From assembly GCA_021826965.1 (NCBI GenBank), contig JAKAYA010000003.1:1-64000 (forward strand): 64,000 bases of DNA, given 5' to 3'. This DNA comes from Nitrospirota bacterium. Lineage in GTDB: Bacteria; Nitrospirota; Leptospirillia; Leptospirillales; Leptospirillaceae. The stretch's first letter is position 1, and each line of letters begins with the position of its first letter. The notes below the pieces were generated by a model that made no database searches, was not told the DNA's origin, and saw only the letters and a list, made by a program, of their open reading frames with translations. The translations under genes were made by a program, and so were the position numbers. Below, one piece after another: positions 19,089-36,354 of this stretch.

Positions 19089-20060
19089 ATGATTCTTGTC
19101 ACTGGCGGCGCCGGGTATATCGGGTCCCACATGGTTCGCGTTCTGATCGAAAACGGTTTCGAGGCCGTCATCCTGGACAACCTTTCCCACGGAACAAAGG
19201 AAGTCGCCACTCTGACCGGAGCACCGCTGGTGGTGGGAGACATCCGCGACCCCCGGGCACTCACATCCCTCTTCTCCCACTATCCGGTCGAAGCCGTCAT
19301 CCATTTCGCTGCGGCCATCGAGGTCGGAGAATCCGTCCTGGATCCCCTCAAATACTGGGACAACAATCTGAACGGCACCCTCCGGATCCTGGAAACCATG
19401 CGTTCTTTCGGCGTCCGCAACCTGATTCTGAGCTCGACGGCCGCCGTCTATGCACCCAAGAGTGACGGCCCCATCACGGAAGAAGACCGGATCGATCCCC
19501 AAAATCCTTACGGGGAAACGAAAGCCGCAGCGGAACGTCTTGTCGAAGCCTCCCGGCAAGCCTTCGGCGTCTCGTCCGTCGTCTTCCGGTATTTCAATGC
19601 CGCCGCGATGGAGCCTTCCTACGGGCTCGTTTCTCATGCCATTCCCAGGTCTCATCTGATCCCGGCCGTTCTGGACGCCCTTTCAGGCCGAATTCCTGCC
19701 CTCCGCGTTTTCGGGAACGATTATCCCACGCCGGACGGTACCGGCGTCCGGGACTACATCCACGTCATGGATCTCGCGGAAGCCCATCTGGTTGCTCTCC
19801 GGCGTCTTCTCAAAGGGGAAGTCTCCGGCACGTTCAACCTCGGGACCGGACAAGGGCATTCCGTCCTGGATGTCATCCAGATGGCGGAAAAAGTGACCCG
19901 GAAGAAAGTCCCGTACCGGATCGAGGCCCGTCGGCCCGGAGATGTGTCCATGCTGGTGGCCAGCGGAACCCGCGCCCGGCAGACGCTTCCGTGGTTTCCC
20001 GTCCGGTCTGGCCTCGAACGGATTATGGAAGACAGCGCCCGCGGTTGGGGTCTTATATAG
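19089..20060 (+). CDS. galE: UDP-glucose 4-epimerase
   Basis: Extended short-chain dehydrogenase interconverting UDP-glucose and UDP-galactose (323 residues). The Rossmann motif TGGAGYIGSH is at the N-terminus, then STAAVYA and the catalytic YGETK (Y-x-x-x-K). ATG 19089 has GGAGG four bases upstream and its own TATAAT promoter. It stands alone and is convergent with the sensor-kinase gene, sharing its last eight bases (20053-20060) with that gene's end. It probably feeds galactose into lipopolysaccharide or exopolysaccharide; a UDP-GlcNAc specificity cannot be excluded. Confidence 0.93.
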   Translation: MILVTGGAGYIGSHMVRVLIENGFEAVILDNLSHGTKEVATLTGAPLVVGDIRDPRALTSLFSHYPVEAVIHFAAAIEVGESVLDPLKYWDNNLNGTLRILETMRSFGVRNLILSSTAAVYAPKSDGPITEEDRIDPQNPYGETKAAAERLVEASRQAFGVSSVVFRYFNAAAMEPSYGLVSHAIPRSHLIPAVLDALSGRIPALRVFGNDYPTPDGTGVRDYIHVMDLAEAHLVALRRLLKGEVSGTFNLGTGQGHSVLDVIQMAEKVTRKKVPYRIEARRPGDVSMLVASGTRARQTLPWFPVRSGLERIMEDSARGWGLI

Positions 20061-21408
20061 GGAGACCCGAGGAGACGGGCTCCCGGGAAGGAACCCGGAC
20101 AAGAAATGTCGATCCCTGCCCCGGGGTGCTGGTGACGCGGACCGTTCCCTGCAGGATTTCCAGAATATGCCGGACGATCGAAAGACCCAGGCCGGTTCCT
20201 CCCATCTCTCTGGACCGGGCCCGGTCCACCCGATAGAATCTCTCGAATATCCGGTCCGCCTCTGTCCGGGGAATGCCGACACCCGTATCCCGGACCTCGA
20301 ATACGATCGAATCGTCCTCTTTCCACCCGGAAAAAGACACTTCCCCCCCGGCTGGAGTGTACTTGAGGGCGTTGTCGACAAGATTGCCCAGAACCAGGTC
20401 CATTTTTCCTTCGTCGGTCTCGTAGGTGATCGTTTCGTCCGGGATGAGGGCCGTGAATCGTATCCCCTTCTTCGCCGCCTGGTCGGCATAAACGTCGCGA
20501 ATGTGGGCGATTTGGCTCGAGACCCGGACCTCGCTGTAACGCATGACTGCCTTTCCCGTCTCGAGCTCCGACAGATGCAAGAGATCGGAGACGATGTTGC
20601 CCAGCCGTTCGGCATGCGCAAGAATGATTCCTGAAAAGGCACGCGCCGTCTCCGGGTCACCGATTCCTCCATCGTGCAGGGCCTCCGCAAACCCCCGGAT
20701 CGAGGTGAGAGGCGTGCGGATTTCATGGGAGACGTTCGCGACGAAATCTTTCCGGACCCGCTCCAGGTGCCGGATATCCGTCAGGTCGAAGAGAAGGAAA
20801 ACCCCGAACACATCGGTCTCTCCCAACCCTCGGGCCGTCGTCCCGACGAGACTCCATGTTCTCGACGGCGTGACCTCGGAAAAAACCACCTCCTTCTGAA
20901 CGCTTCTGCGATGCTGGAGGACTTCCTCGATCAGATCGTTGATCCCCGTCTTCCGGGCCAGAAGACCGAACGATTCTCCCCGGACATCCCCTTCCACCTT
21001 GAAAAAGCGAAAAAAAGCCCTGTTGACCAGCAGGATTTTTCCCTTGAGGTCCGTGACAACGACCCCCTCCTCCATATGGTTCAGCACCGCATCAAAACGG
21101 GAGGAGGCTTCCTTGAGCTTTCGGGAACTCTCTTCCCGCTCGCGGTAAAGCCGGACCGTTCCCTCGTAGAGCGGATCGAGAAGGTCGGTCGCCCAGCTCA
21201 GGAAGTGGGTCATTTCCGGGCGGGAGAGAAAGGCGCGGATCTGTCCGCCGGTTTTTCGGTAGGCGACGAGACCGGAGAGAAGGATGAGGGTGATGGCCAG
21301 AAAACCGGCCCAGAAAGCCGATTTCGGCGAAGGAATCGTCCCGACTGCCCATCCCGCGAAAAAGGCGGCCAGGACACACAGGAGGAAGAAGAGGCGCAAG
21401 CCCATCAT
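20053..21408 (-). CDS. PhoR-like sensor histidine kinase
   Basis: Two-component sensor (451 residues). Two hydrophobic helices near residues 4-23 and 31-49 leave almost no periplasmic loop. A PAS domain (~115-220) follows, then HisKA with the phospho-acceptor in FVANVSHEIRTPLTSIRGF, and HATPase_c with N-box LGNLVDNALKYTP and G-boxes RDTGVGIP and GGTGLGLSIV. This is the PhoR layout. GAGGAGG precedes two consecutive ATGs (21408 and 21405; the second has the better spacing). It lies ten bases after the regulator gene, at the end of the sulfur/SAM operon. The signal is unknown. Confidence 0.9.
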   Translation of the reverse strand: MMGLRLFFLLCVLAAFFAGWAVGTIPSPKSAFWAGFLAITLILLSGLVAYRKTGGQIRAFLSRPEMTHFLSWATDLLDPLYEGTVRLYREREESSRKLKEASSRFDAVLNHMEEGVVVTDLKGKILLVNRAFFRFFKVEGDVRGESFGLLARKTGINDLIEEVLQHRRSVQKEVVFSEVTPSRTWSLVGTTARGLGETDVFGVFLLFDLTDIRHLERVRKDFVANVSHEIRTPLTSIRGFAEALHDGGIGDPETARAFSGIILAHAERLGNIVSDLLHLSELETGKAVMRYSEVRVSSQIAHIRDVYADQAAKKGIRFTALIPDETITYETDEGKMDLVLGNLVDNALKYTPAGGEVSFSGWKEDDSIVFEVRDTGVGIPRTEADRIFERFYRVDRARSREMGGTGLGLSIVRHILEILQGTVRVTSTPGQGSTFLVRVPSREPVSSGLPI

Positions 21409-21417: not shown

Positions 21418-22113
21418 CTAGGAGTCTTCCCTGTCCATGAATTTGTAGCCGATCTGCTTGACTGTCTGAACCCGGTCCTGGAAGAATCCCAGCTTTTTCC
21501 GGAGTCGCCGGATGTGAACATCCACCGTCCGGTCCGTCCCTTCGTAGTCCGGTCCCCAGACGAGATCGAGCAGCATCTGCCGATCCAGGACACGCCCGGA
21601 ATTCTTGACGAGTGTCAGAAGCAGGGAGAATTCCTTGGCGGTCAATTCCAGAAGAACATCACCTGCCCGGGCTTCGTGCCGCGCCACATCCAGCACGACC
21701 CCCGCCGCGGCGAAACGTTCCGGACGCTGCGTCGGCTCCTGCTCGGTACGTCGCAGGATCGCCTTGACCCGTGCCAAAAGTTCCTTCGGGTTGAACGGCT
21801 TGACGATATAATCGTCCGCTCCCAGCTCCAGACCCACGATCCGGTCCGTCTCATCGGATTTGGCCGTCAGGATCACAACCGGGATCCCGGCTGTCAGCGG
21901 ATCCTTCTTCAGGCTCCGGTTGATCGACAGGCCGTCGAGACCCGGCAACATCAGGTCCAGAACAATCAGGTCAGGATGAAGCGTCCTGGCGTTGGAAAGC
22001 CCGTCGAGACCGTTCGACGCGGTGATCACCTCAAAATGCTCCTGGAGAAAATAGTGCTTCAGCAGAGTGACGATATCCGCTTCATCTTCAATGACAAGGA
22101 TCTTTCGGCCCAT
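21418..22113 (-). CDS. PhoB/OmpR-family response regulator
   Basis: 231 residues: a receiver domain with phospho-acceptor Asp in DLIVLDLMLPGLDGL and acidic pair EDEAD, conserved Thr/Lys (ILTAKSD, VKPFNPKE), then a C-terminal winged helix (VDVHIRRLRKKLG...QIGYKF). It resembles PhoB most. The ATG overlaps the stop of the JAMM peptidase gene (TAATG) and has AGGAGAAGG upstream. It pairs with the following kinase. Its place at the end of the sulfur operon suggests co-transcription with those genes. Confidence 0.92.
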   Translation of the reverse strand: MGRKILVIEDEADIVTLLKHYFLQEHFEVITASNGLDGLSNARTLHPDLIVLDLMLPGLDGLSINRSLKKDPLTAGIPVVILTAKSDETDRIVGLELGADDYIVKPFNPKELLARVKAILRRTEQEPTQRPERFAAAGVVLDVARHEARAGDVLLELTAKEFSLLLTLVKNSGRVLDRQMLLDLVWGPDYEGTDRTVDVHIRRLRKKLGFFQDRVQTVKQIGYKFMDREDS

Positions 22114-22550
22114 TATCCTTCTCCTGGGACTTCTCCCGACACCATAAGCGGGATTTCGCAAACGACTCCGTTCCGGATTGTATAGGCCTTCAGGGGGGGA
22201 GGGTCTTCTGCTAGCGAGGTCAAAAGATAGTACAGTTCGGGATAAAAGGCCAGACGAACGTCCGTCTCCGAAGGGTAGGGACGGGTAGCCGGATGGGAAT
22301 GATAGATCCCCCACATCTCCAGACCCTCCCGGCGAAGGTCCTTCTGGACCTGAAACTGTTCTTTCGGGTTCATTTCGTATCGGACGGGAGAATGAAGGGC
22401 GTTTTCCATCGGAATGACGCGGACGGGCCCTCCGCCAGAAGGTGCCGCTACGAGTCCGCAGCACTCCTCGGGAAAAACGGAACGGGCATGCGCGACGATC
22501 GCCTCGTACAGCCCGGAGGGGAAGGGCAGTGCGGACAATGGCCGACTCAT
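22113..22550 (-). CDS. JAMM/MPN (M67) metallopeptidase, carrier-protein processing type
   Basis: 145 residues with the JAMM zinc site: Glu in FPEECCGLV and H-x-H...S-x-x-D in YHSHPATRPYPSETD. The family includes Mec+, QbsD and HcyD, which trim C-terminal residues from, or hydrolyse adducts of, small ubiquitin-like sulfur carriers. The gene directly follows a ThiF-like gene (TGATG overlap) and lies in the same operon as two carriers whose Gly-Gly motifs are followed by extra residues, which fits a maturation role. ATG at 22550 gives the normal N-terminus. Confidence 0.88.
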   Translation of the reverse strand: MSRPLSALPFPSGLYEAIVAHARSVFPEECCGLVAAPSGGGPVRVIPMENALHSPVRYEMNPKEQFQVQKDLRREGLEMWGIYHSHPATRPYPSETDVRLAFYPELYYLLTSLAEDPPPLKAYTIRNGVVCEIPLMVSGEVPGEG

Positions 22551-23353
22551 CAGATCGAGCAGGCCCAGTCGGTAGACCCGCTGACGGACAGGATGGAAGG
22601 ATTCTTTCCGCACAAAGGACAGCTCGGATCCTTCGGAACCCGGACTTTCCGGAAACTCATCGCCAGGGCGTCATAGATCAGAAGACGATCGTTCAGGATG
22701 TCCCCCAGCCCGAGGATCAGCTTGATCACTTCGACCGCCTGAAGAGTTCCGATCGTACCACCCAGAACCCCCAGAACCCCCGCCTCCGAACAGGAGGGGA
22801 CGAGGCCGGGGGGAGGGGCCTCCGGATAAAGGCACCGATAGCACGGAGTGGCCCCGTATCCTTCCAGAACGACGACCTGTCCCTCGAATCGGAGGATCGA
22901 CCCGGAAACCAGCGGTTTTTTGAGGAAGAAAGCCGCGTCGTTCACCACGTACCGGGTTCCGAAGTTGTCCGAGCCATCCACGATAACGTCGTACTCCCGG
23001 AAAAGGGCGGTGACATTCTCCGCGGTGAGCTTCTCCTCGATGGGAACGACCCGGACGTCCGGGTTCATGGCCGTCAGTGTGTCATATGCCGACAGGACCT
23101 TGGATTTTCCGACGGTCTTCGTTGAATGGAGAATCTGGCGCTGGAGGTTGGACAGATCCACGTTGTCCATGTCCACAATGCCGATGGTTCCGACCCCCGC
23201 GGCGGCGAGATAGAGAGCCACAGGACTCCCCAGTCCCCCCGCTCCGATGATGAGAACACGTGATTGAAGGAGCTTCTTCTGCCCGGCTCCGCCCACCTCC
23301 TTCAGGATGATGTGCCGACTGTAGCGTTCGATCTGGTCTTCCCGAAAATCCAT
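22550..23353 (-). CDS. ThiF/MoeB/HesA-type E1-like adenylyltransferase (copy 1)
   Basis: 267 residues. It adenylates the C-terminal glycine of a small sulfur carrier. It has the nucleotide site VLIIGAGGLGSPVALYLAAAGVG, the DMDNVDLSNLQRQ stretch, zinc-binding CxxC pairs (CYRC and CPLC) and SEAGVLG, where MoeB has its catalytic-loop region. There is no C-terminal rhodanese domain. ATG at 23353 has only a weak AGAGGG site. It sits between the NIL-domain gene and the JAMM peptidase gene. It is clearly related to the second E1 at 25158-25970, but which carrier each uses is not known. Confidence 0.9.
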   Translation of the reverse strand: MDFREDQIERYSRHIILKEVGGAGQKKLLQSRVLIIGAGGLGSPVALYLAAAGVGTIGIVDMDNVDLSNLQRQILHSTKTVGKSKVLSAYDTLTAMNPDVRVVPIEEKLTAENVTALFREYDVIVDGSDNFGTRYVVNDAAFFLKKPLVSGSILRFEGQVVVLEGYGATPCYRCLYPEAPPPGLVPSCSEAGVLGVLGGTIGTLQAVEVIKLILGLGDILNDRLLIYDALAMSFRKVRVPKDPSCPLCGKNPSILSVSGSTDWACSI

Positions 23354-23370: not shown

Positions 23371-23613
23371 CTAGCCTTCCAGGATCGTCTTTTCGAGGGG
23401 GTCCACATGGATTCCTCTCTGACGAAGATACTGGACGGTCCGTTCGATTTCCGGAAGCTCCCCTTCGAGTTCGAGTTCCACCCAGCCCGAACGGTCGGAA
23501 ACGTCCGCCCGACGGATATTGGGAACAACACGAAACTTCTGCGATATTTCGTACAGAATCGGCTCCTTGACCCGCTCTTCCGGAAATGTCATGTGGAACC
23601 GGAGCTTTGTCAT
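23371..23613 (-). CDS. NIL-domain (ferredoxin-like fold) protein
   Basis: 80 residues forming a stand-alone NIL domain (RFHMTFPEERVKEPILYEISQKF...GWVELELEG...). The domain is known from the C-terminus of the methionine ABC transporter MetN, where it binds methionine, and from proteins tied to homocysteine synthesis in anaerobes. No Fe-S cysteines are present. Its ATG overlaps the carrier-protein stop (ATGA). In this operon a methionine- or homocysteine-related role is a reasonable inference. Confidence 0.85.
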   Translation of the reverse strand: MTKLRFHMTFPEERVKEPILYEISQKFRVVPNIRRADVSDRSGWVELELEGELPEIERTVQYLRQRGIHVDPLEKTILEG

Positions 23614-23891
23614 CGGCTTCCACCGGCGATGGCGGGAATGATAGAGAGTTCGTCGCCATCCTTGATGGGGGTTTTTGTCCCCTCGAGAAAACGGATGTCT
23701 TCCTCGTTGACATAGATGTTGATAAACCGGCGGACTTCCCCCTTTTCATCCATCAGTCGCTCCCGGATGCCCGGATAGTCGCGGACGAGGCTCTCCAGAA
23801 TTTCCCGGACGCTGGCGCCCTTGAGCTGGACTTCCTTCTGTCCGTTAGCCAGTGGGCGGAGCGGGGTCGGAATACGGACAAGAACAGACAC
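23610..23891 (-). CDS. MoaD/ThiS-family sulfur carrier protein with C-terminal GG-SR
   Basis: 93-residue beta-grasp protein (VRIPTPLRPLANGQKEVQLKG...INIYVNEEDIRFL...GDELSIIPAIAGGSR). The Gly-Gly needed for thiocarboxylate formation is followed by Ser-Arg, so the protein must be trimmed first; the JAMM peptidase of this operon is the obvious candidate. It resembles CysO/HcyS more than MoaD. GTG start at 23891 with AAAGGAG eight bases upstream. It lies 20 bases after thrC and overlaps the NIL gene. Confidence 0.88.
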   Translation of the reverse strand: MSVLVRIPTPLRPLANGQKEVQLKGASVREILESLVRDYPGIRERLMDEKGEVRRFINIYVNEEDIRFLEGTKTPIKDGDELSIIPAIAGGSR

Positions 23892-23911: not shown

Positions 23912-25195
23912 TCAGGACGGCTTGACGATTTTCTGGAACGAGGCCAAGGTGGGATCGATTCCCACCGGTTCCGGGAGGTATCCGGTCAGGGCTTCCATGG
24001 TTTTGAGGCCGTTCCCGGTGATATAGGCCACCGTAAGTTCATCCGGCCGGATCGCTCCTTTTTCCGCCAGCTTCTTGAGGCAGGCCACCGTCACCCCTCC
24101 GGCCGTCTCCGCAAAGATGCCTTCCGTTTCGGCCAGGAGGACCATGCCTGCAACGATTTCCGGATCTGAGGCCGCTTCAACCTGACCCCGGGATTTCCCG
24201 ATTACGTCGAGCGCATAATAGCCGTCGGCCGGGTTCCCGATCGCAAGAGACTTGGCAATTGTCTTCGGTTTGACCGGGACGAATTGCGTACGTCCCGCCG
24301 CAAAAGCCTGGTAGACGGGGGAACACCCCTGTGCCTGAGCACCGTTGACACGAAGACCCGGATGCGATTCGACGAGTCCCAGTTGCGCAAACTCCTGGAA
24401 GCCTTTCCAGATCTTCGTCAGGAGAGATCCCGAAGCAATGGGAACGACCACCTGATCGGGAATCTTCCATCCCAGCTGCTCTGCAGTTTCGAAAGCCATC
24501 GTCTTGGAGCCTTCCGCATAGTACGGCCGGATGTTGATGTTGACGAACGCCCAGGGATATTCTCCGCCGATCTCGCTGCAAAGGCGGTTGACGTCGTCGT
24601 AATTTCCCCGGACAGACACCACGGTCGGACGGTAGATGAGATTGCCCAGAACCTTGCCGGCCTCCAGATCGTGGGGGATGAACACGTAGCATTCCATCCC
24701 GGCGCTCGCCGCATGGGCGGACACCGAATTTGCGAGATTTCCCGTCGACGCGCAGGCGACAGTCCGGAATCCCAGTTCCCTGGCCCGGTTTATTGCAACG
24801 GAAACGACCCGGTCCTTGAACGACAATGTCGGATGGTTGACGGTATCGTTCTTGATGAAAAGGTTTTTCAGACCAAGGACTTCCCCGAGCCGTTCGGCCC
24901 GGATCAAGGGGGTCATCCCCGCATGAAGACCGATGGTCGGTTCTCCGGCGATCGGGAGCAGATGCTTGTATCGCCAGAGGGAGTTGGGGCCTTGTGCGAC
25001 CGTGGCGCGACTCATGACCTTTCCGATCGCTTCATAATCGTAGTCCACTTCCAGCGGACCAAAACAGAAATCGCAGACATGGACCGGATCAAGATCATAG
25101 ATGCGGCCACATTCGCGGCATTTGAGCCCCCTCATCAGGGAAGGGAACTTCTGGCCTTCAGGAAAGGGCCGGGGTGATGCAGACGGGTTGCTCAT
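23912..25195 (-). CDS. thrC: Threonine synthase
   Basis: PLP enzyme converting O-phosphohomoserine to threonine (427 residues). It carries an N-terminal zinc-ribbon-like segment (CRECG...CDFC) found in one ThrC group, the PLP lysine in LSFKDRV, and the STGNLANSVSAHAA motif. ATG at 25195 overlaps the tail of the upstream E1 gene by 38 bases; an ATG at 25135 is possible but has no ribosome site. It competes for the same phosphorylated or acylated homoserine pool used for homocysteine synthesis, which may explain its place in a sulfur amino-acid operon. Confidence 0.9.
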   Translation of the reverse strand: MSNPSASPRPFPEGQKFPSLMRGLKCRECGRIYDLDPVHVCDFCFGPLEVDYDYEAIGKVMSRATVAQGPNSLWRYKHLLPIAGEPTIGLHAGMTPLIRAERLGEVLGLKNLFIKNDTVNHPTLSFKDRVVSVAINRARELGFRTVACASTGNLANSVSAHAASAGMECYVFIPHDLEAGKVLGNLIYRPTVVSVRGNYDDVNRLCSEIGGEYPWAFVNINIRPYYAEGSKTMAFETAEQLGWKIPDQVVVPIASGSLLTKIWKGFQEFAQLGLVESHPGLRVNGAQAQGCSPVYQAFAAGRTQFVPVKPKTIAKSLAIGNPADGYYALDVIGKSRGQVEAASDPEIVAGMVLLAETEGIFAETAGGVTVACLKKLAEKGAIRPDELTVAYITGNGLKTMEALTGYLPEPVGIDPTLASFQKIVKPS

Positions 25196-25970
25196 AATCG
25201 TGAAGCTCCGTGATGGTTGGTTGGTCTCCGCAAACCGGACACCGTGGATTTCTCTTGACGCGCACGTTCCGGAAAGCGACAGGAAGCGCATCGTATGTCA
25301 GAAGCCTGTCGGAGAGCACGTCTCCGCGGCCCAGAAGGATCTTCAATACTTCCGTCGCCTGAATGGTGCCGATCACCCCGGCGATGACGCCCAGAATTCC
25401 GGCTTCCGAACAAGTCGGGACGGCTCCGGCCGGAGGCGGGTCGCGAAACAGGCAACGATAGCAGGCCGATTCCCCCGGAAAAATGGACATCACCTGGCCC
25501 ACGAAGCGAAGAATTCCCGCATGGACCAGAGGTTTTTTCAGAAGGACCGCCAGATCGTTGATCAGAAACTTCGCCGCGAAATTGTCGGTCCCGTCGACCA
25601 GGATGTCATAGTTTCCGGCAATTTCCCGGGCGTTCTCCGCCATCAGCTGGGTCGAGTGTTCGGTGACGCGCACATCCGGGTTCAGGAGGGTGATCTTCTC
25701 CTTCGCGGATGTGACCTTGGGCCGTCCCACATCTCCGGTCCGGTGGATGATCTGGCGTTGCAGGTTCGAGAGATCCACACGGTCCATGTCGACCAGTCCG
25801 AGATGCCCCACCCCGGCGGCGGCAAGGTAGAAAGCCACGGGACTGCCCAATCCGCCCGCACCGATAATCAGGACGCTGGAGGAAAGAAGCTTCGACTGTC
25901 CGGCCCCTCCGACTTCAGGAAGAAGAATGTGACGGGAGTACCGGAGAATCTGCTCTTCCGTCATTTCCAT
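25158..25970 (-). CDS. ThiF/MoeB/HesA-type E1-like adenylyltransferase (copy 2)
   Basis: 270 residues, close in sequence to the E1 at 22550-23353: VLIIGAGGLGSPVAFYLAAAGVG, DMDRVDLSNLQRQ, CYRC and CPVC zinc pairs, and SEAGILG. It should activate one of the two operon carriers, most simply the ThiS-like protein encoded two genes upstream. AGGAAAGGA precedes ATG 25970. Its last 38 bases overlap thrC. The presence of two non-identical E1s in one operon argues for two carrier circuits rather than recent tandem duplication. Confidence 0.9.
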   Translation of the reverse strand: MEMTEEQILRYSRHILLPEVGGAGQSKLLSSSVLIIGAGGLGSPVAFYLAAAGVGHLGLVDMDRVDLSNLQRQIIHRTGDVGRPKVTSAKEKITLLNPDVRVTEHSTQLMAENAREIAGNYDILVDGTDNFAAKFLINDLAVLLKKPLVHAGILRFVGQVMSIFPGESACYRCLFRDPPPAGAVPTCSEAGILGVIAGVIGTIQATEVLKILLGRGDVLSDRLLTYDALPVAFRNVRVKRNPRCPVCGDQPTITELHDYEQPVCITPALS

Positions 25971-26010: not shown

Positions 26011-26949
26011 TCAAAGCGCCAGATATTTTTCCATGGAAAAATATCGTTCATAGCTGTCGCAGACGATCGTGACGATATGACTTCCGGGCGGAAGAGTCCT
26101 TGCCAGAAGCAATGCTCCGGCCACATTCGCACCGGAAGAAATGCCCGCCATGATCCCTTCTTCCCGGGTCAGGCGGCGCATCGTCTCGATCGCGCTCCGG
26201 TCCTCGATTGTTTCGATTTTATCACAAACCGAACGATCCAGAATCTTCGGAACAAATCCGGCTCCGATCCCCTGGATGCGATGAGGACCGGGATCCGCCC
26301 CCGAAAGAACAGCGCTCGACGCCGGTTCCAGACCCCAGATCCGGACGGACGGATACCGCTCCTTCAAAAAACGCCCCACTCCGGTAATTGTTCCTCCGGT
26401 CCCGATTCCGGCAACGAACCCGTCTGGAGCACGCCCGAGCTGCTCCAGAATCTCCGGTCCTGTCGACCGGTAATGGGATTCAGGGTTGGCGGGGTTGTCG
26501 AACTGGCGAGGCATAAAGGAGCCCGGACGATTCTCCAGCAGGATTTCCGCCCGGCGAATCGCGCCCGCCATTCCTTCTCGAGCCGGGGTCAACTCGACTT
26601 CTGCGCCGAGGGCCTTTAAATGATAAACCCGTTCCTGGCTCACGCCTTCCGGCATCACGATAACGACAGGATACCCTTTCAGGACGCCGATCTGGGCCAG
26701 AGCGATTCCGGTGTTCCCGCTGGTTGCTTCAACAATGCTTCCGCCCGGACCCAGCTCCCCGTTTCGCTCCGCCTGTTCCACCATAAAACGGGCGGGACGG
26801 TCCTTGACAGACCCCCCCAGGTTCCGGGATTCGAGCTTGACCCAGACAACGCGGTCGAGATCACGCGTCATCGCTTCCAGGGGCACCAGGGGAGTCCGAC
26901 CGATCAGTTGCTCCAGTGTCGCGGTGTCATGCCCCGGAGGAATGACCAC
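26011..26949 (-). CDS. cysM: Cysteine synthase (CysK/CysM family)
   Basis: PLP-dependent O-acetylserine or O-phosphoserine sulfhydrylase (312 residues). It has the PLP lysine in NLGGSVKDRPA, substrate loop EATSGNTGIALAQ and glycine-rich GTGGTITGVG. In this operon the sulfur donor could be a carrier thiocarboxylate, as in the CysO-CysM system, instead of free sulfide. The start is GTG 26949 (VIPPGHD...), with GGAGG eight bases upstream. That ribosome site lies inside the Gly codons of the overlapping ThiS-like gene. Whether it is CysM- or CysK-like in substrate cannot be decided here. Confidence 0.88.
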   Translation of the reverse strand: MVIPPGHDTATLEQLIGRTPLVPLEAMTRDLDRVVWVKLESRNLGGSVKDRPARFMVEQAERNGELGPGGSIVEATSGNTGIALAQIGVLKGYPVVIVMPEGVSQERVYHLKALGAEVELTPAREGMAGAIRRAEILLENRPGSFMPRQFDNPANPESHYRSTGPEILEQLGRAPDGFVAGIGTGGTITGVGRFLKERYPSVRIWGLEPASSAVLSGADPGPHRIQGIGAGFVPKILDRSVCDKIETIEDRSAIETMRRLTREEGIMAGISSGANVAGALLLARTLPPGSHIVTIVCDSYERYFSMEKYLAL

Positions 26950-27157
26950 GCATACCCCCTCCCCCCATGAAAAAGAGGATCTCGACTTCGTCTTCCCCAT
27001 GCAGGGGAGTGACGTCCCACTCTTCCTTCTCGACGATGCGGCCGTTCAGCTCGACCGACACCAGTGCCGGGTCGAACCCTTTCTGCTGAAGAAGCTGGGA
27101 GAGCGTCGAGACCTCTCCGATTTCCTCCGTCTTTCCGTTCAGTTGTATGGTCGCCAT
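26927..27157 (-). CDS. ThiS-like sulfur carrier protein with extended C-terminus
   Basis: 76-residue ThiS-type beta-grasp protein (IQLNGKTEEIG...LLQQKGFDPALVSVELNGRIV...DEVEILFFMGGGG). Normal ThiS ends at Gly-Gly; here a run of four glycines is followed by eight more residues (MRGHSSGA) before the stop. The tail lies over the start of the cysteine synthase gene. Like the other carrier in this operon it would need trimming before sulfur transfer. ATG 27157 is three bases after ahcY. It could serve thiamine synthesis, but no thiG is nearby, so a role in cysteine or homocysteine synthesis is preferred. Confidence 0.85.
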   Translation of the reverse strand: MATIQLNGKTEEIGEVSTLSQLLQQKGFDPALVSVELNGRIVEKEEWDVTPLHGEDEVEILFFMGGGGMRGHSSGA

Positions 27158-27160
27158 CGA

Positions 27161-28450
<1,290 letters not shown>

Positions 28451-28489: not shown

Positions 28490-29647
28490 TCAGGCCCGCC
28501 GCTCCGCTTCCTTCTTGAGCGCCTCGACCATGTCGAGTTTTTCCCAGGTAAAATCCTCTTCGTTCCGTCCGAAATGGCCGTATGCCGCCGTCTTCCGGTA
28601 AATGGGCCGGCGAAGCTTCAGGTGGTTGATGATTCCCAGCGGGGTCATCGGAAAAAGTTCCCGGACGCAATCCGAAATGATTTCATCCGGGAGAACCGAG
28701 GTTCCCTGGGAATCGACCAGGACGGATACCGGATCGCGAACCCCGATCGCATAGGCGAGCTGGACTTCACAGCGTCTCGCCAGCCCCGCACCGACGATGT
28801 TTTTCGCGATATAGCGCGCCATGTAGCAGGCGGATCGGTCGACCTTCGTCGGATCTTTGCCGGAAAAGGCTCCGCCACCGTGGCGTCCCCAACCGCCGTA
28901 GGAATCAACAATGATCTTCCTGCCCGTCAGACCGGCATCCCCCATCGGACCTCCCGTTACAAAACGTCCCGTCGGGTTGATATGAAAGACGATCCGGGCC
29001 GGATCCACCAGATGCTCGGGCAAAACGGGACGCACGACCTTCTCCAGAATGTCGTTATGGATTTCCTCCTGGGAGATTTCCGGGGCATGCTGGGTCGAAA
29101 GAACAACCGTGTCCACCGAAACCGGGACGTTGTCGACATATCGGAGCGACACCTGGGATTTTCCGTCCGGACGAAGATACGGAAGAATTCCGGTCTTCCG
29201 GATGCTGCTCAACTGCCGGGTCAGGCGATGGGCCAGCAGGATCGGCATGGGCATGAGCTCCTCCGTCTCGTCGGTCGCCATGCCGAACATAAGGCCCTGG
29301 TCGCCAGCTCCGCCGGTATCGACTCCCATCGAAATGTCAGGCGACTGGGAATGGACCGCCGTCAGAACCGAACAGGTCTTGTAGTCGAACCCGAAGGCGG
29401 CATCCGTGTACCCGATGTCCTTGACGATTTCCCGCGCAATATCATCGTAAGGCGTATTGTGCTTTGCCGTGATCTCTCCGGCGATCATCACGATGCCGGT
29501 CGTGGTCAAGGTCTCGCAGGCAACCCGAGCCATCGGGTCCTGTGCGAGAATGGCGTCAAGAATCCCGTCGGAAATCTGGTCGCATATCTTGTCCGGATGA
29601 CCTTCCGTGACAGATTCGGATGTAAAAAGAAAAGAAGATCGGCCCAT
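28490..29647 (-). CDS. metK: S-adenosylmethionine synthetase
   Basis: Cytoplasmic enzyme making SAM from methionine and ATP (385 residues). Hallmarks are [20 protein letters not shown] at the N-terminus, GAGDQG and [23 protein letters not shown] lies nine bases before ATG 29647. It is the first gene of the sulfur operon. Upstream, in order, are a promoter, a SAM-II-like aptamer and an intrinsic terminator, so feedback by SAM is likely. Confidence 0.97.
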
Positions 29648-29679: not shown

Positions 29680-29711
29680 AAAAAAAAACCCGGTGCGCGA
29701 GCACAGGGTTT
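29680..29711 (-). terminator. Intrinsic terminator (attenuator) in the metK leader
   Basis: Read on the minus strand, AAACCC pairs with GGGTTT (29706-29711 with 29686-29691), extended inward by GTGC/GCAC around a 4-base loop, and is followed by a run of about nine T. A competing stem, TTTACT (29726-29731) with AGTAAA (29709-29714), would use part of the terminator arm. It is located between the aptamer and the metK ribosome site. Confidence 0.85.
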
Positions 29712-29737
29712 ACTTTCGAAACACGAGTAAAGAACCT

Positions 29738-29790
29738 GGACTTTTAGCACTTTTTTTAGGTGGTTGCAATATACCTCAAATCAATCCACC
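29738..29790 (-). promoter_or_regulatory. SAM-II-like riboswitch aptamer
   Basis: On the minus strand: stem GGTGG (29786-29790) with CCACC (29759-29763). The loop contains TGATTT (29778-29783) and ATTGCAA (29764-29770), and an A-rich strand after the stem leads to GTGCTAAAAG (about 29741-29750). This order and these words match the SAM-II consensus (loop UGAUUU...AUUGCAA, then AAA...GCUAAAA), with a different but intact stem. Expected start of transcription is only a few bases upstream, and the first gene controlled is metK. Related SAM-V RNAs share this core, so the class name is provisional. Confidence 0.78.
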
Positions 29791-29800
29791 CTGCCTTTTT

Positions 29801-29830
29801 ACGATATGTCCTGACTTGCTCCGAAGTCAA
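29801..29830 (-). promoter_or_regulatory. sigma70-type promoter of the metK operon
   Basis: Minus strand: -35 TTGACT (29825-29830), 18-base spacer, -10 TATCGT (29801-29806). Transcription would begin near 29794, immediately before the aptamer stem. Confidence 0.6.
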
Positions 29831-30360: not shown

Positions 30361-30412
30361 TGGTGGAGCTGAGGGGGATCGAACCCCTGACCTCAAGACT
30401 GCCAGTCTTGCG
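30361..30412. repeat. attL: 52-bp copy of the tRNA-Ala 3' part
   Basis: Identical to 36279-36330. It contains the anticodon arm, T arm and acceptor 3' strand with CCA (minus-strand sense) but no D arm or 5' acceptor strand. It is therefore a recombination scar, not a functional tRNA. Confidence 0.92.
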
Positions 30413-30637
30413 GCTCTAATTTTTACCCTCTTTGACCTCTATTGATAATCCTCTAAAAAACAAGACTTTAAAGGAATTTTCCCCATCCTCGACTTTGATC
30501 TACATCCTTGGTTTTTCGATCAAAATTGATGCACAATATGGAACATAGATGGAACTTTTTTAAGAGGGAATCGGCTACAGTCCTTAAAGTTACTCTTCTC
30601 GACCGGATCCGGAATATGGAAACGGAGGTGAAAGACG
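30413..30637 (+). other. A+T-rich leader between attL and the integrase
   Basis: Noticeably A+T-richer than the flanking chromosome. It holds one 19-bp repeat (30538-30556) and GGAGG nine bases before the integrase ATG at 30638. No gene seen. Confidence 0.5.
30538..30556. repeat. Left copy of a 19-bp repeat, possible integrase arm site
   Basis: ATGGAACATAGATGGAACT recurs in the same orientation at 36213-36231, near the other end of the element. Each copy itself contains TGGAAC twice, 11 bases apart, as expected of a helical-phased protein-binding site. Confidence 0.55.
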
Positions 30638-31824
30638 ATGACAACAGTCAAGGAAGTGGCGAAAAATGGCCGTTCTGAAAGGCCGGTCCTGCATCTCACC
30701 CAAAAGACGCTGGAAACCTTGTCTCCCAAGGAAAAGCCCTACCTTGTCCGGGACGATGAGATCAAGGGATTGGTGGTGAAGGTCTACCCCACCGGAACGA
30801 TGACCTTTTTCTCGACGTGCTGACGGAGAAGCGTCACGACATGTTCAAGATCGGACAATGGCCCGACCTGAACATTGCTCAGGCGCGGGAGAAGGCCAAG
30901 AAAATGCGGGGGGACCTCGCCCAGGGGAAGAACCCGAAGGCGGAGAAGAAAGAGGGGATCGCTGTCGGGGAATTTTTTCAGGTCTATATGGACCGGCACG
31001 GAGCCCTCAAGAAATCGAAAGCGAACGATCTGAACAGCTTCACCAAATACCTGAAGCCTTGGGCCACTCATCCTCTCCAGGGAATCACGCGCTCGAAAGT
31101 GGAAACGCTCCATCGGACCATCGGAAAGGACATGCCGGTTCAGTCGAACAGGGTTCTTGCCCTCCTGTCCACCATGTTCTCCAAGGCGATGGTCTGGGGC
31201 TATTTCAAAGGAGAGAATCCGTGCCGGGGAATCCGGAAATTCCGGGAGGCCAGCCGGGACCGATTCCTTTCCGGGGAGGAACTGGTCCGGTTCTTTGAAT
31301 CCCTGGACCTGACCGAAAATCCGGCGTTCAAGGACTTCATCCTCCTGTCGTTGTTCACTGGGGCCAGAAAGTCGAATGTCCTGTCCATGCGATGGAAAGA
31401 TGTCGACTTCGAGCGGTCCGTCTGGAAGATCCCCGGAGAACTGAGAAAGAACGGAGATCCCATGCAGATTCCCCTTGGGACGGACGTTCTGGAGATCCTG
31501 AAACGGCGTCGTGCGGAAACTTCCTCCGTCTTCGTCCTTCCGGGACCGGGGGCGAAGGGCCATTACACGGAGCCCAAGAGGGCATGGGCGACCTTGCTCA
31601 AGCGAGCCAACCTGGAAGACCTCCGGATTCATGATCTGCGTCGGAGCATGGGGTCATGGATGACCATCGGGGGGGCCTCTCTTCCAATCGTCGGTAAGGC
31701 ATTGGGACACAAAACCTCTCAGGCGACTTCCATTTATGCGAGGCTGAACCTCGATCCCGTCCGGGCCGCGATGGATCAGGCGGTCGAGGCGATGAATAGA
31801 AACAGGAAGAAGACAACAGGATGA
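30638..31824 (+). pseudogene. Tyrosine integrase, single-base frameshift
   Basis: P4-type integrase. The first 60 codons (ATG 30638, good GGAGG) encode the start of the arm-binding domain (PYLVRDDEIKGLVVKVYPTG) and hit TGA. The rest of the same domain and the whole core continue from about 30812 in another frame (TEKRHDMFKIGQWPDLNIAQAR). One extra T in the run at 30807-30813 would restore a continuous protein. Catalytic residues are present: Arg in TGARKSN, HDLRR, His in LGHKTS and Tyr in SIYARL. Either a true mutation, a sequence error in a T run, or frameshifting; there is no classic slippery heptamer. Confidence 0.88.
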
Positions 31825-31835
31825 AAGGACACCCT

Positions 31836-32030
31836 ATGAAACCGATACTACATCCCCACTACATTACGGACGAGGCAGGAAAGAAAATGTCGGTCGTACT
31901 TTCCATTGATGAGTATGAATCCTTGCTTGAAGACATTGAAGATCTTGCCATTGTCGCGGAGAGACGGGACGAGCCCACGATATCCCACGAAGACCTTGAA
32001 GCCAAGCTGAGTGCCGATGGCCTCTTATAA
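31836..32030 (+). CDS. Type II antitoxin, RelB/Phd-like
   Basis: 64-residue acidic protein (VVLSIDEYESLLEDIEDLAIVAER..., then a flexible C-terminal segment). This resembles Phd/YefM/RelB antitoxins that neutralise RelE toxins and repress their own operon. ATG 31836 has AAAGGA six to seven bases upstream. It follows the integrase end by twelve bases and overlaps the toxin start. Confidence 0.78.
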   Translation: MKPILHPHYITDEAGKKMSVVLSIDEYESLLEDIEDLAIVAERRDEPTISHEDLEAKLSADGLL

Positions 32031-32277
32031 AGTCGTCTGGAAACGCAGTGCGGAAAAGGAACTGCGAAAACTTCCGAAAGAGATGATCCGTAAGTTATTG
32101 GACCAGGCATCCATGTTGAGCCGAGATCCGTTTCCGGCAGGAGTCAAAAAGCTTGTGAACGCGGAATCGGTCTATAGACTCCGGGTTGGTGCCTATCGAC
32201 TGATTTTCAGGGTAGAGCAGTCCAAATTGGTTATCGAAGTGATTCTCGATGGGCATCGTCGGGACGTTTATCGGTAA
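32017..32277 (+). CDS. RelE/ParE-type toxin
   Basis: 86 residues with the RelE fold signature: YKVVWKRSAEKELRKLP, KLVNAESVYRLRVGAYRLIFRV and a terminal VILDGHRRDVYR. RelE members cut mRNA in the ribosome; ParE relatives act on gyrase. The conserved RxGxYR and the C-terminal basic/tyrosine residues fit RelE. ATG 32017 lies inside the antitoxin gene (14-base overlap), so translation is coupled. The pair probably stabilised the element. Confidence 0.85.
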   Translation: MASYKVVWKRSAEKELRKLPKEMIRKLLDQASMLSRDPFPAGVKKLVNAESVYRLRVGAYRLIFRVEQSKLVIEVILDGHRRDVYR

Positions 32278-32375
32278 GGAAGGCAGTCCATCACGGGGCC
32301 CAGGCTGATCACCGAAGGCGGGAATCTCCACCCGCTGGCCCCACCACTTCGGAGACGTGCAGGAGAGCGCGGACG

Positions 32376-32813
32376 ATGATTTCTTCGGACATCCTGAGCC
32401 AAATCAAATCTATCGTTAAAGACAAACCTCCCCAAACGGTCGATGTATTCCTTGCCGAGCTGGAAATACTGGCCTCTCCCGAGGTTCGTGAAAGAATCGA
32501 TCGGGACTTTCGGGAATTGGACAAAGAAGACCGCCATACCGTCAAGATGCTTGAAAAGGACCCGTCCCCCCTTTCCCGACAAATTCTGGACGACAGGAAA
32601 AAAGGTCAAGGGAAAAAGAGCCTGACGAGAGGCCGTCCCCGCAATTTGGCCGAAGAGGTCACGGTTCTCAATGTTGTCACCCTTTACCAATCCTGTTTCT
32701 GTCTGCCTCGGAAAAGTCATGAGGATCCCTGCCTCAAAATTCTGCATCTTCTCCTGAACACCGAAGAATCTCCCTGGCATTCCTTCTTGAAGGCCATCTC
32801 GGACCTTTCCTAG
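32376..32813 (+). CDS. Unknown 145-residue protein ending at the IS border
   Basis: Hydrophilic, mostly helical protein (ISSDILSQIKSIVKDKPPQ..., RERIDRDFRELDKEDRH..., GQGKKSLTRGRPRNLAEE). No family recognised. AGGAGA lies 13 bases before the ATG. The stop codon TAG (32811-32813) is formed by the first bases of the insertion sequence, so the C-terminus may be cut short. It may have been an accessory or regulatory gene of the element. Confidence 0.5.
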   Translation: MISSDILSQIKSIVKDKPPQTVDVFLAELEILASPEVRERIDRDFRELDKEDRHTVKMLEKDPSPLSRQILDDRKKGQGKKSLTRGRPRNLAEEVTVLNVVTLYQSCFCLPRKSHEDPCLKILHLLLNTEESPWHSFLKAISDLS

Positions 32814-32826
32814 CTCTACAGCGACA

Positions 32827-33256
32827 TATACCCAAAGAACATGAATAACCCCGGAGCATTTTGAGCGATGGCCAAGTCAACTCGAAACAAAAAGAGGGAA
32901 AACGATCCTCTCCGGGCCATAAAAAACGGTTTTGGGGGGCATGGATGAGAGGGTTTCGGAGGGATCCCAGGCCTCGGCGGAGGTTTCAAGACGCAGGAGG
33001 GGGGCTCGAACCTGTCATGTGCGGCCGGGAAGAATGCGCGGACGGACCGGGAAGAATGCGCGGACGGAAAGGATCGGGCGGGGGAGGGCCTACCCCGTCC
33101 GGGGAACGTCATACTTCAAGCGGTTTTTCTTGTCCCGGGAGAGGAAGGAAATCCGGTTCCGGCGCTGATGGTAAGCAAGATGCTCAAGGACGGAGATTCC
33201 AGGGAAGGCGAGCCGGGACAGGACATCGACCACCAGGAGGTGGGCCTGAGGGAGGG
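32827..33256. other. Non-coding left end of the insertion sequence
   Basis: 430 bases between the left inverted repeat and the transposase stop, with no supported gene. It contains an exact 22-base tandem duplication (33025-33046 and 33047-33068). Confidence 0.5.
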
Positions 33257-35269
33257 TCAGAAGGACTTTTTTTTAAAATCGATCCGAAGGGACTGGAGAA
33301 AGAGATGGGCCAGGAAGACGTGGAGCATGTGACGGTGCCAGCCGGTCCAGGAGCGGTTCTCGTAATGCCCCATGCCGAGAAGGGACTTGCTCTCGAGGAG
33401 GGCGCGGGAGTGGGACCAGCGAAGGATGGAGACCTGGACCATCGTCTCGAGGGGGCAGTCTTCGGGGGCATTGCAGAGGACGTACTTGGTCTTCCCTTGC
33501 GCGTTCTGGGCCTCGGAGCGGAAGAGGAAGAGCCAGACGGGAGAGGGCGGATCCAGCGGCTCCTCCGGGACCAGGAAGACCCGGAGCCGGGAGACGAAGA
33601 CCCGTTCGACGCCAAAAGAGGCACTGGGACGGATGACCTCCGTCCAGGACGTCTGGCGCGCGAGCTCCTCCACGGAGACCGGGGTCCGGGAAAGCCGGGA
33701 GCCGGGTTTTCGTCCCCGGCCGGACCATTCCGGCATCTCCCAGGTGGGGCGCTCCGGAAGAACACGGATGTTGGAGCGGACCGAGGCGAAGTACGTGAGT
33801 CCGGAAGGAATGGCGTCGAGGAAGGACCTGTCCGAGCCCAGGCCGGCATCGACCCCGACCCAGGAGGCCGCGAGAGGATCGCTCCCGTGCGCCTTTTGGA
33901 GAAGCTCGAGGGCGATCTGGTTCTTGGTCCGGAAGGTTTCGGTCTCCGGCACGCCGGTCTTCTTGCGCCGCTCCGCGTGGTCGGCATCGTACCAGATCTC
34001 CGGGAGGTAAAGTCGGGCATCGAGAAAGGCGTAGCCCCGATCGGTCACGAGGCCCAGGAAGACCCCGGACTGGCAGTTGGCCACCTTGCCCAGATGACCG
34101 CAGTACTGGGGAGCGACTCCGACCGACTCGGCCCCTTTCTTGGGGAACTCGGAGGGATCGAGCGTCCACATGGGCGGAGTCTGCGAGGTCTGGGGAGACA
34201 GAAGGAGACGCGCCTTCTTTTGGTAGATCCCTTTCAGGGCCTCGTCATCCACCAGGTAGCCGGAGACGAAGCGCTGAAGGTTCCGGACGCCTCCGCTCCC
34301 TTCCAGGGACAGGGCGATGGGTTCGATGCTCTTGCGGCCCAGATCGGACAGAAGACCCAGGGTGTAAAGATGGGAGTAGCGGCGCGTCTCCGATCTCCTG
34401 AAAACGGGAGCGAAGTCCTGGCAGAAGGTTTCGAGCGCCTGGGCGATCCTCTGGAGGTCCTGGTCTTCGAGGACCTCGCTCTTCTCGAGAAGGGCGGGGT
34501 CCACATGGTAGGACTCGGGAAGGACGATCCGGACCGGGGCGGGAGGGGGCGCCCCCTGGGGAGTCTTCGGCGCCTGGGGTTCCCTGGGAGGAGGAGGTGT
34601 CTTCCCCGTGCGGTCCCGCCGGACAACGGGCTTGGGAGGAGGCAGGAGGCCGGCCTGGATGCGGAAGTCCGGCGCCAGGGTATAGAGGTACACGTCCTTG
34701 ACCTTCCCGTGTCGGGCGTAATGCTTGGGACCCTTGCGCGTCCGGGAGAACCCCTTGCTCTGCCCCAGGCGGACGAAGCCGGCCGCCCGGTAGCTGGCTC
34801 CCGAGTGATGGACGGGATCGATGTAGCTCTCGACCAGCCAGGGGGCATAGCCGAACCGCTCTTCCCAGTCGGCGGGAAGACGGCGGAGCAGCTGCCCCAG
34901 GAGATGGGAGGCCAGGTATCGGATCCGGACGCCCGGCAGGATGAGAAATCGGCTGTTGTTGACGACCCGGTGCCGGAGGAGCTTCCGCTCCCCGGCACTC
35001 CAGCCGATATGGATGTCCCGGACCTCAAGGTGGGGAGCCGAGGCGGAAAAGGACAGGGCTCCCACGACCGTGTCCTTCACCCGCGCCAGGTACTTGATCT
35101 GGCGCCCGGGAAGCTTCTTGTACCCCAGGGGATGATGTTCCCGAACCGCTTGGTCCCAAAGGGCGGCCTCCTCCGATCCCGGATCCACCGGTTCGATCGT
35201 GATCGGGCCCAGACTCTCCAGGGTTCCCCAGAGGACGGGAGGGACGACAGAGGGGGCGGGTTGTTCCAA
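33257..35269 (-). CDS. Transposase: DUF4338/DruA-like N-terminus fused to IS701-type DDE domain
   Basis: 670 residues. The N-terminal ~220 residues match DUF4338 (DruA of the Druantia defence system): GYKKLPGRQIKYLARV, VVNNSRFLILPGVRIR, ASHLLGQLLRRLPADWEERFGY. A Pro-rich linker follows, then an IS701/DDE_5-like domain (~285-665). Probable catalytic Asp lies in MWTLDPSEFPKKG, Asp in GVDAGLGSDRSF and Glu in RALLESKSLLG. The core block SVGVAPQYCGHLGKVANCQ is family-typical. TTG at 35269 is chosen because AGGAGG lies five bases upstream; TTG 35287 is possible. The inverted repeats flank it, supporting its role as transposase. Confidence 0.85.
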   Translation of the reverse strand: MEQPAPSVVPPVLWGTLESLGPITIEPVDPGSEEAALWDQAVREHHPLGYKKLPGRQIKYLARVKDTVVGALSFSASAPHLEVRDIHIGWSAGERKLLRHRVVNNSRFLILPGVRIRYLASHLLGQLLRRLPADWEERFGYAPWLVESYIDPVHHSGASYRAAGFVRLGQSKGFSRTRKGPKHYARHGKVKDVYLYTLAPDFRIQAGLLPPPKPVVRRDRTGKTPPPPREPQAPKTPQGAPPPAPVRIVLPESYHVDPALLEKSEVLEDQDLQRIAQALETFCQDFAPVFRRSETRRYSHLYTLGLLSDLGRKSIEPIALSLEGSGGVRNLQRFVSGYLVDDEALKGIYQKKARLLLSPQTSQTPPMWTLDPSEFPKKGAESVGVAPQYCGHLGKVANCQSGVFLGLVTDRGYAFLDARLYLPEIWYDADHAERRKKTGVPETETFRTKNQIALELLQKAHGSDPLAASWVGVDAGLGSDRSFLDAIPSGLTYFASVRSNIRVLPERPTWEMPEWSGRGRKPGSRLSRTPVSVEELARQTSWTEVIRPSASFGVERVFVSRLRVFLVPEEPLDPPSPVWLFLFRSEAQNAQGKTKYVLCNAPEDCPLETMVQVSILRWSHSRALLESKSLLGMGHYENRSWTGWHRHMLHVFLAHLFLQSLRIDFKKKSF

Positions 35270-35389
35270 CGAATCCTCCTGTTCCAAACGGGTGAACCGT
35301 CAACAGGAGGCAGTGTAATCAAAAAAGAGGAACCTGTTTACCCCTCCCGACAAAAACGGGATAGGTGAAGCAGTGTCGCTGTAGAGCTA

Positions 35390-35671
35390 AGACACCGCCA
35401 CCCCAAGAAATCTTCCGACTGGATCAAGACAACTTACCTTCGGAGGGTCAGAGGTCGCGACTGGACCTTCACGGGAACAACGGGAGAAACATTGTATCAG
35501 GCCTCATCCACTCCCATCCGGCGGCATGTCAAGGTCAAAGGCGCGGCTCATCCGTTCGATCCCAAATGGACGGGCTACCTCAGAACCCGAAAGGAGTTCC
35601 TGAAGCTCAGGGGAGCGGGAGAGAATCTTTCCTTCTTCCCTATGGGCCAAGCCATCCGTCAGGTTTCCTGA
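35390..35671 (+). pseudogene. C-terminal remnant of a group II intron reverse transcriptase/maturase
   Basis: The frame is open from the IS border to TGA at 35669-35671. It reads KKSSDWIKTTYLRRV, then LYQASSTPIRRHVKVKGAAH, then PFDPKWTGYLRTR, matching the end of bacterial intron-encoded proteins (typically TPIKRHVKI...NPYDPEWE...YF). The reverse-transcriptase domains and the 5' half of the intron are absent from both sides of the IS. It is followed at the expected distance by intron domain V. Confidence 0.8.
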
Positions 35672-35719
35672 ACGCGGGGAATAACCGGGTCCGGAGGAAT
35701 CCGGGCCTTCGAATGGCGT

Positions 35720-35794
35720 GAGCCGGATGCGGTGAAAGTCGCATGTCCGGTTCTTGGGGGGCGGGGGAGCGGTGACGCTCTCCTGCTACCCGAC
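35720..35794 (+). ncRNA. Group II intron domains V and VI (3' remnant)
   Basis: A 34-base domain V at 35720-35753 begins GAGCCGGATGCGGTGAAAGT and closes with GTCCGGTTC: the outer stem GAGCCGGAT/GTCCGGTTC and a GAAA-type cap are intact. A domain VI-like hairpin follows (GAGCG/CGCTC around GTGA, about 35767-35780) with a downstream CTACCCGAC end. The 3' splice boundary is probably near 35794. With no 5' domains here it cannot self-splice. Confidence 0.85.
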
Positions 35795-35847
35795 AGGTCT
35801 CAGGTATCGGGGAAGCGAAGCATGATGCGAATCTATCCCCGGGATCG

Positions 35848-36130
35848 TCACGCCCCTTCCGGAATAGCTCCTTCCCGGATCTTCTTGGCCGCAATGATGG
35901 ATTCGCGGGAGACGTTCAGCATCTTCCCGACATCCTCTTGGGTCAAAGTGGAATTTTCAACTTTGAAATTCTCGCTTTTCCTGTCTCCTCCTCTTGGAAG
36001 GTTCGCAATTTTGGCCCCGATCATCGCCCGTTGGGACTCGTTCAGATGGCGGCGCTTCAGGTTCATCGACAGGACGAAGGAAGGGGATCATCGCCTTCGT
36101 ATTTTCGCGGAGAACACGCGGGAGGGAGCA
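35848..36130 (-). pseudogene. ParB/Spo0J-like protein remnant with frameshift
   Basis: The frame ending at 35848 reads LSMNLKRRHLNESQRAMIGA and then QEDVGKMLNVSRESI, typical of the middle of plasmid/phage ParB-like proteins. The preceding conserved stretch KYEGDDPL is found upstream (about 36085-36110) in a different frame; one missing base in the CCCCTTCC run explains this. The N-terminal catalytic part and the C-terminus are not recognisable. Confidence 0.6.
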
Positions 36131-36212
36131 GGCACCCCCCTGAGAGGGCGTCTTCACAATGCCGCTCGGAGTTTTACTGGGGACAAGAATAGGGATCCGA
36201 CTTCCGCCGAAA

Positions 36213-36231
36213 ATGGAACATAGATGGAACT
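36213..36231. repeat. Right copy of the 19-bp repeat
   Basis: Identical to 30538-30556 and in the same orientation; it lies 47 bases inside the right att copy. Confidence 0.55.
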
Positions 36232-36278
36232 CGATTTGATGACCGAGGGAATGAAGACGTTTAACTCATTATGAAATA

Positions 36279-36330
36279 TGGTGGAGCTGAGGGGGATCGA
36301 ACCCCTGACCTCAAGACTGCCAGTCTTGCG
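36279..36330. repeat. attR: 52-bp repeat within tRNA-Ala
   Basis: Perfect match to 30361-30412; the match stops at 36331, where the complete tRNA continues with its D arm. Confidence 0.92.
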
Positions 36331-36354
36331 CGCTCCCAACTGCGCCACAGCCCC
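36279..36354 (-). tRNA. tRNA-Ala (anticodon GGC), CCA encoded
   Basis: 76 bases on the minus strand. Acceptor GGGGCTG pairs with CAGCTCC (one G-T), D arm GCGC/GCGC, anticodon arm CAAGA-CTGGCAG-TCTTG giving GGC, T arm AGGGG-TTCGATC-CCCCT, and a genomic ACCA end. The 3' 52 bases recur at 30361-30412 as the att repeat. The element's right end preserves the complete gene. A good promoter lies upstream (36391-36419). Confidence 0.97.

Follow-up and report, generated by a model that had tools for sequence, protein, structure and literature searches.

A SAM-II aptamer followed by a terminator, very probably a SAM-dependent OFF switch, precedes a metK-led twelve-gene sulfur operon in a Nitrospirota bacterium

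The window, a 64,000-nucleotide stretch of a Nitrospirota genome (contig JAKAYA010000003.1, positions 1 to 64,000), carries on its minus strand a run of genes that begins with metK and ends with a two-component pair. These genes, with the profiles that identify them, are:

28490–29647, minus: metK, S-adenosylmethionine synthetase, ATG at 29647 (TIGR01034, 576.7 bits)
27161–28417, minus: ahcY, adenosylhomocysteinase (TIGR00936)
26927–27157, minus: ThiS-family sulfur carrier 1 (PF02597)
26011–27000, minus: cysteine synthase (cysK/M), with the actual start probably downstream of that of the ORF (TIGR01139/TIGR01136)
25158–25970, minus: MoeB/ThiF-type carrier-activating enzyme 1 (PF00899; NF004281)
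23912–25291, minus: threonine synthase thrC, with the actual start probably near 25190 (TIGR00260)
23610–23891, minus: ThiS-family sulfur carrier 2 (PF02597)
23371–23613, minus: NIL-domain protein (PF09383)
22550–23353, minus: MoeB/ThiF-type activating enzyme 2, with a longer ORF extending to 23749 (PF00899)
22113–22613, minus: JAB-domain (Mec+-like) metallopeptidase (PF14464)
21418–22113, minus: PhoB-like response regulator (PF00072, PF00486)
20053–21408, minus: PhoR-like sensor histidine kinase, end of the run (PF00512, PF02518)

From 29647 to 20053 the twelve genes are co-directional and closely spaced or overlapping, and the next gene, an epimerase (18933–20060), lies on the opposite strand. 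An earlier note, made from the sequence of the window, had proposed feedback on twelve genes including a carrier system and a two-component pair, and the TIGR and Pfam profile matches bear this gene content out. The operon order is kept in three related genomes (G003, G004 and G006; leaders L115–L117) for the genes covered by that query, which left the NIL and JAB genes outside, and L117 has about 1.7 kb extra between cysK/M and MoeB. In the case of family f7 (G043, G035 and G026; L099–L101 and L108), a SAM-II leader precedes genes for ThiS, cysM, thrC, TusA, ThiS, MoeB and a radical SAM protein with no metK near these sulfur-carrier loci, which argues that the sulfur-carrier genes are themselves a natural target of control by S-adenosylmethionine (SAM).

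A small integrative element (30364–36354) adjoins the leader. It contains a tyrosine integrase (30817–31821, plus), an ORF with Pfam matches to DruA in its N-terminal part and to the DDE_5 transposase (33260–35287, minus), and a group II intron domain V (35718–35794, plus; RF00029, 63.1 bits). The 3′ end of the tRNA gene at 36282–36354 recurs as a direct repeat that begins at 30364. None of the element ORFs checked was identified as a reverse transcriptase.

Between 29830 and 29647 the minus strand presents a promoter, a SAM-II aptamer, a terminator, a Shine-Dalgarno sequence and metK, in this order; the promoter, the GGTGG/CCACC stem, the words GATTT and ATTGC, the A-rich strand and the terminator that the earlier note had read there are all found. 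The promoter and the aptamer comprise:

29801–29830, minus: sigma-70-like promoter TTGACT-18-TATCGT, 10 nt upstream of P1 (sequence and leader comparison)
29734–29795, minus: SAM-II (long loop) aptamer (RF01726, 46.5 bits)
29786–29790, minus: P1 5′ strand GGUGG, partner 29763–29759 (GGUGG/CCACC in the window)
29778–29782, minus: GAUUU, L1 triplex strand of the ligand pocket (U10–U12 of 2QWY; invariant in A1 and A2)
29774–29775, minus: P2a 5′ strand GG of the pseudoknot, possible partner CC 29739–29738 (relatives pair here too)
29766–29770, minus: AUUGC, P2b 5′ strand (U20 U21 G22 C23; UUGC invariant)
29759–29763, minus: P1 3′ strand CCACC (P1 pairing)
29757–29751, minus: A-rich strand, L3 (read from sequence)
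29750–29741, minus: GTGCTAAAAG (read from sequence)
29743–29748, minus: GCUAAA, P2b 3′ strand (G42–A47; GCUAA invariant)
29738–29739, minus: P2a 3′ strand CC (relatives pair here too)

Assignment to the SAM-II class rests on an Rfam covariance search, in which RF01726 (SAM-II, long loop) matches 29795–29734 with 46.5 bits against a curated gathering cut-off of 44 bits; the earlier note had proposed this check. The E-value is 1e-5 when the whole window is compared with 4,227 Rfam families and 8.4e-8 in a search of the 2.2-Mb genome, where the RNA is a single copy. Two other families were tried and set aside as better descriptions of the RNA: SAM_alpha (RF00521) scores 22.6 bits, under its cut-off of 36, and SAM-V, the other model suggested in the earlier note, gives no match to the window RNA at E up to 10.

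In the crystal structure of SAM-II (2QWY), a fully conserved pocket formed by U10–U12, U20, U21, G22, C23 and G42–A47 surrounds SAM (PMC3764141). All 13 of these nucleotides are present in the window RNA, within GAUUU, AUUGC and GCUAAA. Among the leaders compared, U11 and U21, whose O4 atoms face the sulfonium, are invariant, as are nearly all other pocket bases; the last A of GCUAAA is almost invariant, L106 being the sole exception, with a departure at A47. P2a would consist of only two G-C pairs in the window sequence. The earlier note had regarded GG and CC as a compensatory swap of the reference pairing, which we take to be CC/GG: the loop GG (29775–29774) and the tail CC (29739–29738) can indeed pair, but there are only two pairs and they sit one position out of register with that presumed reference. 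Five P2a pairs are reported in 60% of SAM-II RNAs (PMC6061858).

The RNA shares features with three described groups. Long-loop SAM-II (RF01726) has been published in Bacteroidetes and marine metagenomes (PMC2864571); the window RNA passes this model and has the same pocket words, and metK lies downstream in two Bacteroidota genomes (L169, L170) as well, but the host belongs to another phylum, the loop is short and lacks the extra loop hairpin, and the terminator has an overlapping antiterminator, of which none was seen in the two Bacteroidota leaders. SAM_alpha of Alphaproteobacteria has the same architecture and pocket, and many of its members are followed by terminators (PMC2258182, PMC9373788); in addition to the lower score, it differs in that the alphaproteobacterial examples consulted precede metA and metZ, not metK. 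SAM-V shares the ligand-binding core by crystal structure (PMC6061858) and has a P2a of 2 bp, the length possible in the window RNA, whereas its control is translational, with the Shine-Dalgarno sequence within P2a. The window RNA, which its model does not match, has a terminator, and the Shine-Dalgarno sequence GGAGG (29660–29656) is located 78 nt past P2a, beyond that terminator.

Conservation was assessed in a search of 61 related genomes. The window's own family accounts for 21 of these, of which 18 have an RF01726 match. Loss of the RNA in the other three (G007, G013 and G020) was considered and rejected: two assemblies lack metK and the contig of the third starts inside it, so that every family member's assembled metK leader carries the RNA. 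Across the phylum, 25 of 396 genomes carry it, seven of them from four other families. The resulting comparison set holds 27 leader loci from five families (26 distinct leaders), and the stem and loop words are kept in related metK leaders, a comparison that the earlier note had put forward as a check. R2, a covariance model of our own built from the Nitrospirota leaders and Acidobacteriota members, recovers the identical 25 genomes at 65–80 bits and nothing weaker, although scores for its own members are not independent because several were in the training set; as a control, 150 Bacillota genomes yield one borderline match (E 3e-4).

P1 occurs among relatives as GGUGG/CCACC, CGUGG/CCACG, CCUGG/CCAGG and GCUGG/CCAGC, with double changes from G-C to C-G at two pairs, and its covariation score is reached by none of 500 shuffles and exceeds all slid versions. 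P2a is longer and varied in relatives (GAC/GUC, CGGC/GCCG, GGCU/AGCC), and covariation in the putative H-type pseudoknot is modest (p 0.04 on re-pairing loops and tails). Of the 27 loci, 23 have a TTGAC box with a good -10 in a comparable position, and another two have TTGACG and a weak -10; in nearly all loci at most 5% of shuffles contain boxes as good. Since the promoter-like box ends 10–20 nt before P1 in those 23 loci, the transcript would begin with the aptamer itself. The earlier claim that a SAM-II-type aptamer and a terminator precede a metK-led sulfur operon is upheld by the covariance score, the 26 leaders, the covariation of P1 and the gene context; sequence and comparison together establish the aptamer, its pocket nucleotides, the terminator, the promoter-like box and the operon, as well as their conservation.

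In two leaders (L102, L103; L110 256–318; genomes G018 and G012), SAM-II occurs a second time, as an orphan copy that has a terminator of its own and precedes a short ORF. The ORF of L110 encodes about 65–75 aa and the region is without a Pfam match; the gene after the orphan copy is possibly controlled by SAM.

Downstream of the aptamer, the terminator and the predicted antiterminator share sequence:

29735–29742, minus: antiterminator 5′ strand AGUCCAGG, overlapping P2a, partner 29707–29700 (predicted fold)
29726–29731, minus: inner antiterminator stem UUUACU, partner 29714–29709 (predicted fold)
29709–29714, minus: inner antiterminator stem AGUAAA (predicted fold)
29700–29707, minus: antiterminator 3′ strand CCUGUGCU, which makes up most of the terminator 5′ arm as well (predicted fold)
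29693–29696, minus: GCAC in the terminator 3′ arm, alternative partner of aptamer GUGC 29750–29747 (terminator-free predicted fold)
29680–29711, minus: intrinsic terminator AAACCCUGUGC-UCGC-GCACCGGGUUU with nine U (in 26/26 distinct leaders)

The terminator of most leaders reads CCCUGUGC...GCACYGGG with a U run, after the GCUAAA tail and a variable spacer; all leaders have a short stretch between aptamer and terminator, and the 26 distinct ones share the order of aptamer, predicted antiterminator, terminator and gene. The earlier note had suggested TTTACT/AGTAAA as the antiterminator. This stem exists (29731–29726/29714–29709), but it was rejected as the whole structure: folding gives a longer outer helix and retains it as the inner part, the base being AGUCCAGG/CCUGUGCU together with GUGC/GCAC.

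When the transcript is folded only as far as the terminator 5′ arm, most leaders show this arm paired to the aptamer tail, and when the region from tail to arm is folded alone, an outer helix of 6–7 pairs is predicted in all 26 distinct leaders, formed by AGUCCAGG/CCUGUGCU in the window, by CGGG/CCCG-based pairing in family f7 and by another variant in L107. The spacer forms an inner hairpin in the predicted folds, though its sequence differs between lineages. Penalising terminator pairs when the full-length RNA is folded adds a second helix to the best structure, between aptamer GUGC and terminator GCAC. Folding therefore predicts, in all 26 distinct leaders, that the terminator and the aptamer-linked antiterminator are mutually exclusive. 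The ON fold is on average 5.5 kcal/mol better than the SAM-like OFF fold, in energies that leave out the OFF pseudoknot and kinetics, and the nearness of the two makes ligand control feasible. An alternative fold of similar or lower energy is available in 24 of the 26 leaders; the ON and OFF folds are about equal in L103, and in L105 and L106 the terminator greatly exceeds the alternative in stability. Cross-clade permutation finds the pairing of aptamer core and 3′ arm marginally specific (p 0.046) and that of tail and 5′ arm not specific (p 0.31), with an automatic terminator finder that missed several leaders and sometimes took the second SAM-II copy of the same locus. This weak support follows from the strong conservation of both pairing partners, and we do not claim compensatory change in the antiterminator as proof.

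Folding and homology suggest the competing structures, the identity of the ligand and the direction of control. Transcription would begin just upstream of P1. At low SAM, the 3′ part of the aptamer would join the antiterminator, AGUCCAGG pairing with CCUGUGCU of the terminator 5′ arm; the inner stem would form, aptamer GUGC could pair with GCAC of the terminator 3′ arm, and RNA polymerase would continue into metK and transcribe the operon. At high SAM, the pseudoknot P2 (AUUGC/GCUAAA and GG/CC) would close around the ligand and occupy GUGCUAAAAGUCC, blocking the antiterminator and leaving both terminator arms free, so that the terminator at 29711–29680 would form, transcription would halt before metK and the operon would be OFF. 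It is highly likely that the SAM-II riboswitch acts as a SAM-dependent transcription-termination OFF switch for the twelve-gene sulfur and methionine operon. This mode agrees with descriptions of SAM-II as mostly transcriptional (PMC6061858) and with reports that regulatory terminators are common after SAM-II aptamers in alpha- and beta-Proteobacteria (PMC2258182).

Two other readings accept the aptamer. In the first, the terminator is a constitutive attenuator and SAM acts mainly in another way, for example on mRNA stability. The terminator that follows the SAM-II aptamer of S. meliloti metA is reported as not predicted to be SAM-dependent (PMC9373788), and the strong terminators of L105 and L106 would fit this reading; we consider it improbable, as every leader has complementarity between the aptamer tail and the terminator 5′ arm, in addition to the available alternative folds and the short spacing described above. 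In the second, the SAM-II fold is kept for another ligand such as SAH, which would suit ahcY as the second gene; membership of an RNA family is, moreover, no proof of ligand specificity. Against this reading stand the invariance of the sulfonium-facing U11 and U21 and of nearly all other pocket bases, as well as the f7 and Acidobacteriota leaders without an adjoining ahcY, and it appears less probable still. Chance resemblance of a plain terminator after AT-rich leader sequence, to which a single-sequence score only 2.5 bits above the Rfam cut-off might have pointed, is refuted by the recurrence of these words, in a constant position, in 27 leader loci from five families, by the covariation of P1 and by the clean separation from controls. 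The window RNA very probably senses SAM and thereby halts transcription of its own twelve-gene operon.

The published range of SAM-II in searchable papers comprises alpha-, beta- and gamma-Proteobacteria, Bacteroidetes and marine metagenomes; we found no earlier report from Nitrospirota, Leptospirillum or Acidobacteriota in the open-access literature, and a listing elsewhere is possible. The suggestion that the RNA would widen the class is fair when set against those papers, but because the RNA passes an existing Rfam model, it represents an extension of range, not a new kind. It is a known type of switch in a phylum for which no earlier report was found, and not a conceptual surprise. In Acidobacteriota, whole-genome searches give RF01726 matches in 4 of 199 genomes, all under the cut-off, and R2 matches in 38 of 297 genomes at E up to 0.001, weaker matches being uncertain.

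The SAM-II-like leaders of this phylum (L119–L127 and L148–L166) are mostly below the Rfam cut-off, and some genomes have 2–4 copies. Several, often with a terminator, precede metH, other homocysteine methyltransferase, thrC-like and metY/metZ-like genes, as named by eye from the translated sequence, not by profile search. The aptamers of L119–L121 carry an extra hairpin in the loop, and the first ORF past the terminator encodes a conserved small protein with the motif FPINPQIYHDA.

A broader proposal is that the SAM-II riboswitches of several Nitrospirota families and of Acidobacteriota make up a regulon, either ancient or transferred repeatedly, beyond the Proteobacteria and Bacteroidota. 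Many members would have been missed because they fall below the Rfam cut-off, and they would share an antiterminator with two arms, the strand that binds the ligand pairing with each arm of the terminator; we regard the chances of this proposal as slightly short of even. For the Nitrospirota, the switch would place SAM-controlled transcription over an operon for sulfur carriers, cysteine, threonine and the SAM cycle, and would link a two-component pair to the SAM level through that operon. The SAM-II class extends past its published range, and the conserved, compact arrangement of terminator and predicted antiterminator is suited to studying termination by a small pseudoknot aptamer.
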